From Dyella sp. BiH032 (GTDB taxonomy: Bacteria > Pseudomonadota > Gammaproteobacteria > Xanthomonadales > Rhodanobacteraceae), in the NCBI RefSeq assembly GCF_031954525.1, contig NZ_CP134867.1, positions 1,612,001 through 1,676,000 on the forward strand: DNA of 64,000 nt, given 5' to 3'. The notes under the pieces are model-generated. The model was given only the letters and a program-made list of their open reading frames with translations, was not told where the DNA came from and did not search any database. A program made the position numbers and the translations under genes. Positions 16,041-55,342 of the stretch are shown here, one piece after another (within the stretch, counting starts at the first letter, position 1; each line of letters opens with the position of its first letter).

Positions 16041-16303
16041 GGAATTACTCCTTCATTGGGCCTTTTTCGTGTGGCCCGGGGGTTGGGACCTCCACGCATC
16101 CCCGGCTTCGACCGCGGCCCGCCTGCTTCCCGAAGGGGGGAGGAAAGGGCCGCGGCACCCCGAAGGCGGTGCCGATGCGTGTGTGGCGTTGATTTGTCCA
16201 ATCAAGGACTTAAGTGATCATGCCGCAGCGCGGTTACAATCGCTTTTCGCTTTGCGACCGACAGAACGGAGCCTCCTGAAAGGCTTGTTCGTGGCAGCAA
16301 AAC
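16041..16303 (-). promoter_or_regulatory. long 5' leader of rpsB, possible S2 autoregulatory element
   Basis: If transcription starts from the promoter at 16310-16339, the rpsB message carries about 260 untranslated bases. The leader contains a TTGATT/AATCAA hairpin near 16190-16206 and several GC hairpins nearer the gene. Long rpsB leaders bound by S2 are known in gammaproteobacteria. I did not match a published consensus, so the regulatory role is inferred. Confidence 0.4.
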
Positions 16304-30288: not shown

Positions 30289-30394
30289 GTCATTCCGGGG
30301 GGGGCGGAGGGAGCGCGCAGCGCGGAGTCGCGTAGGCTGGGGTGAGCCCGCGAACGCCAACGGGCGCTAAGGGTCGCCTCGCACCCCCATTCTC
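30289..30394. repeat. GTCATTCCGG-type intergenic palindrome cluster, upstream part
   Basis: This stretch begins with GTCATTCCGG, the same ten bases that open the two long repeats at 30395 and 53992. It continues with GAGCGCGCAGCGCGGAGTC and AACGCCAACGGGCG. These short palindromic pieces are typical of intergenic mosaic elements in this bacterial family. No gene is visible. Confidence 0.5.
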
Positions 30395-30830
30395 GTCATT
30401 CCGGCGTAGGCCGGAGACCAGTGACGACATCGCTCGGTTGCCGCCTTATCGCCAGTCGTGTCTCGCCCGAAGGGCGAGGGTTTCGCTCTCCTGCCGGAGA
30501 GCGAGTTACTTCTTCTTTGCTTGCCCAAAAGAAGAAGTAACCAAGAAGAAAGGGCCCCCTGCGCGGCGCCCTCCGCAGCCTACGCTGCTGCGGGTGCGTT
30601 GAGGGCTGGCCGGGCTTTTCGACAGGGCATCCTGCCCTGATCGAAAAGGCGGGGGCGTCCTGCCCCCGCCCCGCTTCGCGGGCCTGATCGTCCAGCCCTC
30701 ACCGCCGCGAAGGGAACCCGGGAGATCAAGAGCGTTACGGAGCGTCGCTTCGCTCGCTCTTGTTTTTGTTTTTGCTTGCCGCGGTACGCACTTCTCCTTC
30801 TCCCCTCCGGGGAGAAGGCGGGATGAGGGG
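30395..30830 (+). repeat. hairpin-array intergenic repeat, copy 1
   Basis: About 436 non-coding bases are shared with 53992-54448 in the same orientation. In order they hold GTCATTCCGG, stems CTCGCCC/GGGCGAG, CTCTCC/GGAGAG and TTACTTCTTCT/AGAAGAAGTAA, then GCAGC/GCTGC. A long-range 10-bp stem TGAGGGCTGG (30600-30609) with CCAGCCCTCA (30692-30701) encloses three inner hairpins. AGAGCG/CGCTCT and a terminal CTTCTCCCC/GGGGAGAAG hairpin complete the array. Compared with copy 2, loops differ while stems are kept. No protein-coding character. The copy ends about 115 bases before the first Nudix gene. Confidence 0.9.
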
Positions 30831-30945: not shown

Positions 30946-31434
30946 ATGCCTTACACGCCTATCGTCGCCACGCTCGGTTACGTGCTTTCCCCGGACCGCC
31001 GCCGGGTGCTGATGATTCACCGCAATGCGCGGCAGGACGATTTGCACCTGGGGAAATACAATGGGCTGGGCGGGAAGATGGAGCCGGGCGAGGACATCGC
31101 TGCGTGCATGCAGCGCGAGATCCATGAAGAGGCCGGTATCGAGTGCGAGTCGATGCAGCTGCGCGGCACGCTCAATTGGCCGGGTTTCGGCAAGCATGGC
31201 GAAGACTGGCTGGGTTTCATCTTCGTGATCGACCGTTTCCGCGGCACGCCGCTGGACGCCAACCACGAGGGCACGCTGGAGTGGGTGGAGCTCGAGCGGT
31301 TGATGGAGTTGCCGATGTGGGAGGGTGACCGGCATTTCCTGCCGCTGGTGTTCGACGGCGATCCGCGGCCTTTCCATGGCGTGATGCCTTACAAGGACGG
31401 CCGCATGCAGTCCTGGGCGTTTTCGCGTCTGTGA
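30946..31434 (+). CDS. Nudix hydrolase, MutT/8-oxo-dGTP diphosphatase type
   Basis: The 162-residue protein carries a full Nudix box, GGKMEPGEDIAACMQREIHEEAGI (roughly residues 42-65), after VLMIHRNARQDDLHLGKYNGLGG. The YNGLGG and C-terminal MPLVF-like block (FLPLVFDGDPRPFHGVM) resemble the 8-oxo-dGTP diphosphatases of the MTH1-like branch, which clean oxidised nucleotides. The start MPYTPIVATLGYVL at 30946 is chosen because the upstream extension runs into the repeat. Its stop overlaps the second Nudix gene (GTGA). Confidence 0.9.
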   Translation: MPYTPIVATLGYVLSPDRRRVLMIHRNARQDDLHLGKYNGLGGKMEPGEDIAACMQREIHEEAGIECESMQLRGTLNWPGFGKHGEDWLGFIFVIDRFRGTPLDANHEGTLEWVELERLMELPMWEGDRHFLPLVFDGDPRPFHGVMPYKDGRMQSWAFSRL

Positions 31435-53991: not shown

Positions 53992-54448
53992 GTCATTCCG
54001 GCGCACCCCGAAGAGGGGGCAAGGACCGGGACCCAGTGGCGTCACGGCTCGGTTGTCGCGTGATCGCCTGGTTGTCTCGCCCTCTGGGCGAGGGTTTCGC
54101 TCTCCTGCCGGAGAGCGAGTTACTTCTTCTTGCTTGCCCAAGAAGAAGTAACCAAGAAGAAGGGCCCCCTGCGCGGCGCCCTCCGCAGCCTGCGCTGCTC
54201 CGGGTGCGTTGAGGGCTGGCCGGGCTTTTCGACAGGGCATCCATGCCCGAATCGAAAAGGCGGGGACGTCCTGTCCCCGCCCGCCTGCGGCGGCCTGATC
54301 GTCCAGCCCTCACCGCCGCGAAGGGAACCCGGGAGATCAAGAGCGACACGGAGCATCGGGCTGCGCCCTCGCTCTCGTTATGTTTTGGCTGCTTGCCGCG
54401 GTACCGCACTTCTCCTTCTCCCCTCCGGGGAGAAGGCGGGATGAGGGG
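53992..54448 (+). repeat. hairpin-array intergenic repeat, copy 2
   Basis: About 457 bases are the second copy of the element at 30395-30830, in the same orientation and with the same order of elements: GTCATTCCGG (53992-54001), CTCGCCC/GGGCGAG with loop TCT instead of GAA, CTCTCC/GGAGAG, TTACTTCTTCTT/AAGAAGAAGTAA, a long-range stem 54210-54219 with 54303-54312, GTCC-loop stem CGGGGAC/GTCCCCG (54261-54279), AGAGCG/CGCTCT and CTTCTCCCC/GGGGAGAAG. The whole 608-base gap 53865-54472 otherwise shows no gene. Confidence 0.9.
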
Positions 54449-54472: not shown

Positions 54473-55342
54473 TCACTCACGCTTCACCTCAACCCCCAGC
54501 TTCTCCAACTGCTTCTGCAAACTATCCGGCCCGGCGAGATGTCCGGCGCCGACGGCGACGAAGGTGGTGCCTGGCTGGTGCATGCGTTCGGCGATGGCCT
54601 TGGCCCAGGCCTGGTTGCGCTGGACGAGCATGCGGTCGTAGAGCTCGGGGGTGTCTTTGCGGAGGTCTTCGTCTTCGATGCGGGCGATGGTGTCGGTGTC
54701 GCCGCGGCGCCAGGCGTCGATCAGTTCGCGCAGGCGGGCAGGGCCTTCGGCGACTTCGTCCAGGCTCTGGCGGAGGAAGGACAGCTGCATGGATTCGGGC
54801 ATGTCGGCGAGCATGCGCAGTTGCTGCTCGGCGGTTTCCAGGCCCTGGACGGCCTTGCCGGCTTTCTCCATGCGGGCGCGCAAGGTTCGGTCCACGCCTT
54901 GTGCAGGGTCCATGCCGGCACGGACCAGCGGGGTCATCGCCAGGGTGACCGCGGCGAGCCAGGGGCGCATTGGCTGGAGCGTCGCGGCGCCGCCGGGGAG
55001 TTCGGCCTCGTTCGCGGCGCGTTCGAGCCGGTTGCGGTCGCGCGGCGACAGCTTGGCGGAAAGCGGATGCGCCGGATCGAGGCCGTACTTGAGCACCAGC
55101 GCCTGCATGTTGGCGGGGTTGTCGTCCACCAGCTCGATCAGCAGCGTGCCGCTGGCCTCGAGCGCGCGGTCCAGCGCCTGCGAGGACCAGTTGGTGTCCG
55201 ACGGCAGCAGGTGGACGGTGCCGAACAGGTAGACCGTGGCCTGGTCTTTCCGCGCGACCCAGAGCGCGGGTGTCGCGAAGGCGGGGGCGGCGAGCAGCAG
55301 GCTCAGGACGAGCAGCGCGCAGATACGGCGGAACGGCTTCAA
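54473..55342 (-). CDS. TraB/GumN family protein
   Basis: The 289-residue exported protein has a signal peptide (LVLSLLLAAPAFA) and the family blocks VYLFGTVHLLPSDTNW (GTVH at 41-44), LIELVDDN, GVDRTLRARMEKAGKAVQGLETAEQQLRML and FVAVGAGHLAGPDSL. The conserved GxxH and GAGH histidines plus Glu form the proposed metal site of TIKI/EreA-like hydrolases. GumN homologues occur beside xanthan genes, but no gum operon is here. Role unproven, possibly a metalloprotease or hydrolase. Confidence 0.88.
   Translation of the reverse strand: MKPFRRICALLVLSLLLAAPAFATPALWVARKDQATVYLFGTVHLLPSDTNWSSQALDRALEASGTLLIELVDDNPANMQALVLKYGLDPAHPLSAKLSPRDRNRLERAANEAELPGGAATLQPMRPWLAAVTLAMTPLVRAGMDPAQGVDRTLRARMEKAGKAVQGLETAEQQLRMLADMPESMQLSFLRQSLDEVAEGPARLRELIDAWRRGDTDTIARIEDEDLRKDTPELYDRMLVQRNQAWAKAIAERMHQPGTTFVAVGAGHLAGPDSLQKQLEKLGVEVKRE

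Follow-up and report, generated by a model that had tools for sequence, protein, structure and literature searches.

We describe a dispersed, non-coding repeat in the genome of Dyella sp. BiH032 that is probably a non-autonomous, mobile, intergenic DNA element, whose function would reside in the shape into which one of its DNA strands folds and which would be copied or moved as a folded lagging-strand template. More tentatively, we regard it as a mobile element present across many families of the Gammaproteobacteria, the replicating form of which may be a tertiary-folded single DNA strand that combines a triplex pseudoknot of three co-evolving strands with a multi-branched domain. Dispersed, mobile, non-coding repeats that carry REP and triplex modules are known as a kind of object; the form found here is new and far more structured. 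All coordinates refer to the window, i.e., the whole stretch of 64,000 nucleotides that was analysed, which carries two copies.

Architecture and placement of the repeat

A first-pass annotation of the window had reported two non-coding segments with a common order of hairpins, and both are present where it placed them, at 30395-30830 (copy 1) and 53992-54448 (copy 2). Both are real, but the genome holds many more: blastn at a score of at least 300 bits in fetched stretches, mostly around sites of a core pattern, gives a total of 97 copies in the 5.25-Mb genome. The common order comprises a CGTC-REP-like hairpin, a CTCGCCC/GGGCGAG hairpin, the hairpins H0 and H1, a multi-branched domain, a GAGCG...CGCTC 3' hairpin and a final hairpin. 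The features of both copies and their neighbouring genes are as follows.

30333-30362, + strand: module U of copy 1, a GTAGG..GGGGTGAGC/GCGAAC..CCAAC hairpin outside the core
30394-30420, + strand: module A of copy 1, a CGTC-tagged REP-like hairpin with tag CGTC and tail CCA
30462-30478, + strand: CTCGCCC-GAA-GGGCGAG hairpin, with loop TCT in copy 2
30483-30504, + strand: H0 hairpin TCGCTCTCC/GGAGAGCGA, with stem covariation between genera
30505-30541, + strand: H1 hairpin, with a GTTAC base, pyrimidine arm 30510-30518, loop 30519-30527, purine arm 30528-30536 and GTAAC 30537-30541
30523-30526, + strand: pseudoknot, H1 loop side (GCCC), pairing with 30552-30555 according to a covariation test
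30543-30551, + strand: mirror purine tract, predicted third strand of a purine-motif triplex, with mirror covariation in relatives
30552-30555, + strand: pseudoknot, downstream side (GGGC), from the same covariation test
30570-30595, + strand: P0 hairpin CCGCAGC..GCTGCTGCGG, from sequence and consensus structure
30597-30705, + strand: central multi-branched domain (model R1, 105.8 bits); stem 30600-30608/30693-30701 encloses hairpins 30615-30648, 30648-30670 and 30671-30683
30730-30759, + strand: 3' hairpin GAGCG..CGCTC
30787-30830, + strand: module D, a second motif like a class II intrastrand triplex, similar to TMECO/BoxC
30949-31434, + strand: gene adjoining copy 1, Nudix in the first-pass annotation and by its motif presumably so; it served to locate empty sites
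53992-54448, + strand: copy 2, whole element, between parC and a TraB-like gene
54119-54152, + strand: H1 of copy 2, followed by the mirror tract 54154-54161
54207-54316, + strand: central domain of copy 2 (R1, 94.3 bits)
54473-55342, - strand: TraB-like gene adjoining copy 2, named after the first-pass annotation; it served to locate orthologous sites

Comparison of the two copies bears out the differences that had been noted between them. The loop of the CTCGCCC/GGGCGAG hairpin is GAA in copy 1 and TCT in copy 2, the GAGCG..CGCTC hairpin keeps its arms around a rewritten inside, and the pair 30655/30663 is G-C where its counterpart 54266/54274 is A-T. Among all 97 copies this pair is mostly A-T (85), with ten G-C (including copy 1), one A-C and one gap. 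The long-range stem could be located as well, at 30600-30608 with 30693-30701, where it closes the multi-branched domain. On both strands, the folding energy of copy 1 lies far below that of dinucleotide shuffles (z = -8.9 and -8.5, 100 shuffles each). Features beyond that annotation are the H1 pseudoknot, the mirror tract with its predicted triplex, the orientation bias and the broad distribution, all treated below.

Short blastn with each module detects H0-H1 in all 97 copies, and the counts for the central domain and module D are 96 and 95; upstream, module A is present in 64 copies and module U in 44. In loci L211 and L212, a module like U sits at the far end of the element. A 23-base core pattern, searched with up to three mismatches, gives 96 sites, and the reversed-pattern control gives none. 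All 96 are located on the main contig, the other 256 kb being free of them (Poisson 0.007). The copies are intergenic: none of the 97 overlaps any gene by more than 120 bases, as judged by a simple GC-frame ORF caller after calls within the element itself had been set aside. Convergent genes flank 42 copies, codirectional genes 45 and divergent genes ten. An inverted H0-H1 follows the element in two of the 97, and most copies in this genome have no inverted partner.

Stem covariation and the H1 module

For RNA helices, covariation is the standard line of evidence. In an enlarged alignment of 31 sequences, 41 of the 72 consensus pairs show two-sided changes, and the stems covary across genera. 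Both the covariation in a larger alignment and the copies in relatives on which the first-pass annotation had made its reading depend are present. RNA helices would show, in addition, a large G-U excess on one strand. Counted over 69 of the 72 pairs (left out were columns 56/63 and 119/124 and the invariant G-T pair 153/231), the element has 2004 Watson-Crick, 29 G-U and 34 A-C cells. RNase P RNA, taken from 30 family genomes and likewise treated with RNAalifold, has 2779, 168 and 5, respectively, although this control is the more conserved of the two (86% versus 71% mean identity). For covarying pairs only, the ratio of G-U to A-C is 24:26 in the element and 49:5 in RNase P. A distant set of 45 distinct rows gives 32:52, in which a single pair accounts for 20 A-C cells and another one for 16 G-U cells. 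When the reverse strands are folded afresh, the element gives 47:20 and RNase P 234:27, because the folding program then chooses other pairs. The near parity, unlike RNase P, means that the element bears no RNA signature.

This parity (29:34 against 168:5 in RNase P), together with the independence from gene orientation described below, makes it unlikely that the repeat is a structured non-coding RNA, i.e., a dispersed regulatory or sponge RNA whose helices the covariation would serve. Strongly covarying helices are what such an RNA would have, and the 47:20 of the reverse strand folded alone leans mildly towards it, although this ratio comes with the program's own pair choice. The Rfam scan of the element gives no match at gathering score. 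Its weak matches include RsmW (E 0.38), and loops of the minus strand show GGA; an RsmA/CsrA sponge was considered on these grounds and rejected, since the RsmW match lies under the Rfam cut-off. A mirror tract of the purine motif, as found in H1, fits a DNA triplex, and such triplexes are reportedly unexpected of RNA, for which Semerad and Maher (in 1994) are named as the source. The first-pass annotation had explained the selection for base pairing by either a structured RNA or a cruciform-forming mobile element: selection for pairing and a mobile, hairpin-forming element are supported, a structured RNA is not. Elsewhere in the window, an ordinary t44 RNA (Rfam, 62.8 bits) is located at 16082-16203 on the minus strand.

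Comparative evidence supports H1 as a predicted purine-motif intrastrand DNA triplex with a pseudoknot. Candidates were required to have a perfect stem, and those kept also have a purine-rich tract; 78 of 99 were kept, 17 antisense readings and four with a poor stem base being dropped. The tests of the mirror and the pseudoknot use 75 rows that are distinct within their locus, from 61 loci; these rows are related by descent, and the shuffles ignore kinship. The H1 loop pairs with the bases directly past the purine tract, as TGCC/GGCA, TGTC/GACA, TATC/GATA, CGTG/CACG, CAGC/GCTG and others. The mean best stem is 4.57 in the 75 distinct rows and 2.88 in shuffles (sd 0.14, maximum 3.31 of 1000 shuffles). 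One of the 78 H1s lacks this stem, and in seven it has only three bases.

The purine tract mirrors the purine arm of H1. At positions 3-7, arm and tract agree as A/A or G/G (56+18, 45+30, 31+43, 55+18 and 71+3 rows); A/G or G/A is found there in none of the 75 rows, and pyrimidine interruptions occur in five. Exceptions elsewhere are a C at position 1 of the tract in six rows and A/G once each at positions 2 and 8. In the interrupted rows, arm T faces tract C (L164, L285, L291) or arm C faces tract G (L273 at position 5, L173 at position 7). At position 8, the stem end, a C of the arm lies opposite G four times, opposite A twice and opposite C once, counted in rows. The interruptions in these five loci (T to C, C to G) look like a possible third-strand code, with few cases and lost at the stem end; the four arm interruptions within positions 3-6 match no published triad among those checked. 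Identity of arm and mirror is 0.929 within the family (10 distinct 7-base pairs) and 0.937 in other families (nine), with shuffled means of 0.66 and 0.68 and none of 5000 shuffles reaching either value. An earlier and cruder test on 53 H1s with 31 distinct pairs (0.902 versus 0.699 shuffled) is superseded by the 75-row test. Reading the linker as a direct repeat of the arm fits worse than the mirror and was discarded. Since the arm is symmetric in the Dyella genome itself (AAGAAGAA), the window cannot show the mirror and the case rests on relatives; 70 of the 72 H1s caught by a strict pattern fit it.

According to Holder et al. (2015, PMC4666352), the third strand of the purine motif is antiparallel to the purine strand and forms A.AT and G.GC triads, and class II denotes the order pyrimidine, purine, reverse-Hoogsteen. 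Judged by sequence only, H1 agrees in order and register with a class II purine-type intrastrand triplex. It is this agreement of the mirror covariation with the published triad rule, order and register that leads us to read H1 as a triplex. Template switching copies the complement and not the mirror, and thus cannot produce the tract. This bears on quasi-palindrome correction, according to which template switching in hairpins would match the arms without selection, leaving the covariation uninformative on function. Two-sided changes with hardly any G-U or A-C intermediates would also result from that process; it cannot, however, make a reversed, uncomplemented tract track the arm, and it does not easily produce the pseudoknot between loop and downstream bases. 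We consider it an improbable account of the repeat, although it may contribute to the matching of the stems.

Returning to the predicted triplex, the GTNNC stem base of H1 also varies in step (GATAC/GTATC, GTGAC/GTCAC, GGTAC/GTACC). Base 1 of the tract faces the arm base beside GTAAC, so the GTNNC stem base must open in the triplex. In the covarying register the triplex and a 5-bp GTNNC base exclude each other, as a single nucleotide would be left to bridge about 5 bp. Triplex and GTNNC-based hairpin would then be alternative states, or the base would be open. For the related TMECO sequences, published work detected a stable triplex neither in duplex context nor in vivo (PMC4666352).

Orientation, distribution and turnover of copies

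The copies are oriented with respect to replication in two genera. In the Dyella genome dnaA is located at 252 kb, and in G112, a genome from another genus of the family, at 806 kb; the terminus is placed by sampled GC skew only, the sign of which changes near 2.8 Mb and 3.1 Mb, respectively. Full copies (F) run with replication in 71 of 97 cases in Dyella (p = 5e-6) and in 30 of 35 in G112 (p = 2e-5). Single M copies in G112, M being a short end without the central domain, show no bias (17 of 29). Before the dnaA position was used, the Dyella count was 70 of 97, and in this count the bias points the same way in each of the four gene contexts (15:6, 15:9, 32:10 and 8:2). In codirectional contexts, the copies split 21:24 relative to the direction of the genes. 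Gene direction is therefore not the explanation. With the order pyrimidine-purine-purine on the sense strand, orientation with replication implies that the sense strand is usually the lagging-strand template. The Dyella bias is only slightly stronger in the least diverged half (38 of 48) than in the other (33 of 49), is weakest near the terminus (8:6) and shows no clear rise with distance from the origin; four copies just past the terminus oppose the rule. From its orientation, the element appears to be coupled to replication, where the bias could reflect retention instead of insertion.

A core match was found in 102 of the 147 genomes of the family, covering 21 of 26 genera; this search scored only five candidates per genome and left 45 genomes without a match. 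Model R1, a covariance model of the central domain, matches 17 of 274 genomes class-wide and five of 299 phylum-wide, all five inside the class. Model R2, which describes H0-H1, matches 86 of 369 genomes and 69 of 272 genera of the class at E<=1e-5. All these counts include the Dyella genome, and they are lower bounds, because the filters were strict and few candidates were scored per genome (12 to 14 for R1 and R2). One exact pattern searched in named genomes gave no match. Collections of phages and plasmids hold no match to the element at blastn E<=1e-5, so that carriage by either is unsupported by this search. Many H0-H1 matches in G317, G410, G726 and G292 are located at contig ends; short-read assemblies thus probably undercount the element.

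Copies also occur as inverted pairs. Among 35 distinct distant loci searched with R1, ten carry two copies, always in opposite orientation: seven have + then -, and three, all from G311, - then +. In G112, 30 pairs of a full and a short end (F-M) are found among 94 sites, all + then - and spaced by 442-724 bp, and an alignment of 29 of the 30 has a consensus module A at both outer ends. In G112 (L222-L261), a REP-like doublet in inverted arrangement, GTGGGAGCGCACCCTGTGCGCGAC / GTCGCGCACAGGGTGCGCTCCCAC, is located between the F and M ends together with a satellite of the AAGCC type that varies in length. In several genera (L092, L094 and L099), short tandem runs (GCAACA, GGCAAA, AGAGCAG) lie directly 3' of the core. 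Foreign inserts within the H1 loop were seen at L214 and in G112 near 82671 and 213273, as if repeats enter each other's loops.

Orthologous sites differ between the two copies of the window. Copy 1 is absent in all five congeners, by eye as well as by R1 and R2: four have short sites (L221 among them) and L217 has other sequence. These empty sites are too diverged for base-by-base alignment in a test for target-site duplication. L221 (G040) has a different palindromic insert, bounded by CCGCTCTCCGCG and CGCGGAGAGCGG, upstream of the Nudix gene and a little upstream of the site itself. For copy 2, three congeners (G053, G068 and G040) keep H0-H1 (R2) in the same place and orientation without an R1 match; in G040 the H1 loop holds an insert, and a decayed 3' part is visible. 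G081 and G019 match neither model. Judged by the TraB-like neighbour, Dyella genomes (L195-L205) are the nearest among those named, with 84% identity in the best segment. Of the 13 named loci with parC, three carry the M form; in six the intergenic stretch measures 122-254 bases, and the other four hold longer sequence, viewed over its first 700 bases. By their identical scores, the three M-form loci are apparently the G053, G068 and G040 genomes. In 15 named loci around the TraB-like gene, R1 finds no match and R2 only the three M-form loci. Empty sites of copy 1 and altered old sites of copy 2 indicate that the family gains sites and persists at old ones, and the empty sites support mobility of the repeat.

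A polar signal of the chromosome, maintained by the host for replication pausing, segregation or as a supercoil sink and spread by ordinary recombination, would share several of these properties: orientation with replication in two genera, intergenic placement with a preference for convergent genes, and absence from the 256 kb that do not belong to the main contig. Its presence, however, varies, as seen from the 15 TraB-like loci without an R1 match and the 45 family genomes without a core match at five scored candidates each, and the bias does not clearly increase away from the origin. We thus give such a signal little credence and retain the mobile, folded DNA strand as the preferred reading.

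Proposed folding and mobilisation, and related repeats

In the mechanism that we propose, the sense strand would be exposed as lagging-strand template, upon which H0, H1 and the central domain would fold. H1 would adopt a class II purine-motif triplex, consisting of the pyrimidine arm, the purine arm, a GTAACC turn and the mirror purine tract. The pseudoknot between loop and downstream bases would pin this triplex, which would exchange with a longer plain hairpin that uses the GTNNC base. The folded strand would then serve as the substrate that is copied or moved to new intergenic sites, by a host or trans-acting enzyme or by stalled-fork processing.

The first-pass annotation had suggested looking for a linked transposase. 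Run as a search for Pfam Y1_Tnp (RAYT/IS200 transposase) only, this gave no match in the Dyella genome at E<=1e-3; among 14 control genomes, the same search found the family in five. A REP mosaic (BIME/REPIN) mobilised by a Y1 transposase of the RAYT/IS200 type is therefore hard to reconcile with the presence of 97 copies, and we rate it as unlikely, even though the CGTC-REP-like ends, the REP-like inverted doublet of G112 and the inverted pairs would suit it. The same is true of the orientation, as IS608 is stated to target the lagging-strand template (PMC6006769). CGTC REPs, moreover, are reported to have no dedicated transposase (Di Nocera et al. 2013, PMC3733652). Loss of a Y1 enzyme after the spread of the element is possible.

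With IS200/IS605 elements such as IS608, the repeat has in common a folded DNA strand, predicted in its own case, and the orientation to the lagging-strand template (71 of 97 and 30 of 35 copies); it differs in its larger structure and in that no Y1 transposase was found in its own genome. For the same reason it does not belong with GTAG REPs and their RAYT, which would call for a Y1_Tnp gene in the genome (0 matches). Like BIMEs and REPINs, it is an intergenic mosaic of palindromic modules, some of which alternate in orientation; unlike them, it has a multi-branched core, and one of its modules is predicted to form a triplex with a pseudoknot. MITEs are likewise non-coding and dispersed, and the inverted end modules in G112 and in ten of the 35 distinct distant loci recall them. 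The end repeats are, however, folded modules, one end in G112 carries an extra domain, and no parent transposon was found.

CGTC REPs are characterised by a CGTC tag, a stem of 8-9 bp, a loop of 4-5 nt and a CCA tail (PMC3733652). Module A of copy 1 agrees with this by tag and tail, its stem being imperfect; a perfect form with an 8-bp stem, beginning with AT, is found in nine of 293 loci. In contrast to CGTC REPs, module A is one part of a large composite, and in G112 it forms both outer ends.

Closest to H1 are the TMECO/BoxC/PIT sequences (Hoyne and Maher; Holder et al. 2015), which share its class II order of pyrimidine, purine and reverse-Hoogsteen strands and, like the whole element, are intergenic and present in many copies without a transposase (PMC4666352). 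H1 differs from TMECO in its mixture of A and G, in a second loop of 6 nt that also forms the stem base, in the pseudoknot and in the covariation of arm and tract across families. It also sits in a composite of about 440 bp with an orientation that follows replication; for TMECO in E. coli, no strand bias is reported (PMC4666352). The strict published TMECO pattern, CCCTCNCCCN3-6GGGNGAGGGN3GGGNGAGGG, has no match in the window and thus does not cover module D; at the related locus L214, module D fits it exactly. Literature searches, judged by the titles listed, turned up no paper on the element; the H1 motif may be listed unnamed in the ITxF database or in subscription papers.

If our tentative view of the replicating form is correct, the element would provide comparative evidence of evolution maintaining a DNA triple helix, and of replication-coupled spread without known Y1 enzymes. 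Covariation would here point to a DNA fold that includes a third strand. Whether intrastrand DNA triplexes matter in cells is a long-standing question, which becomes testable with natural variants from many genera. A folded strand on the lagging-strand template would also offer a mechanism-level clue for abundant bacterial repeats that have no known mobilising enzyme.
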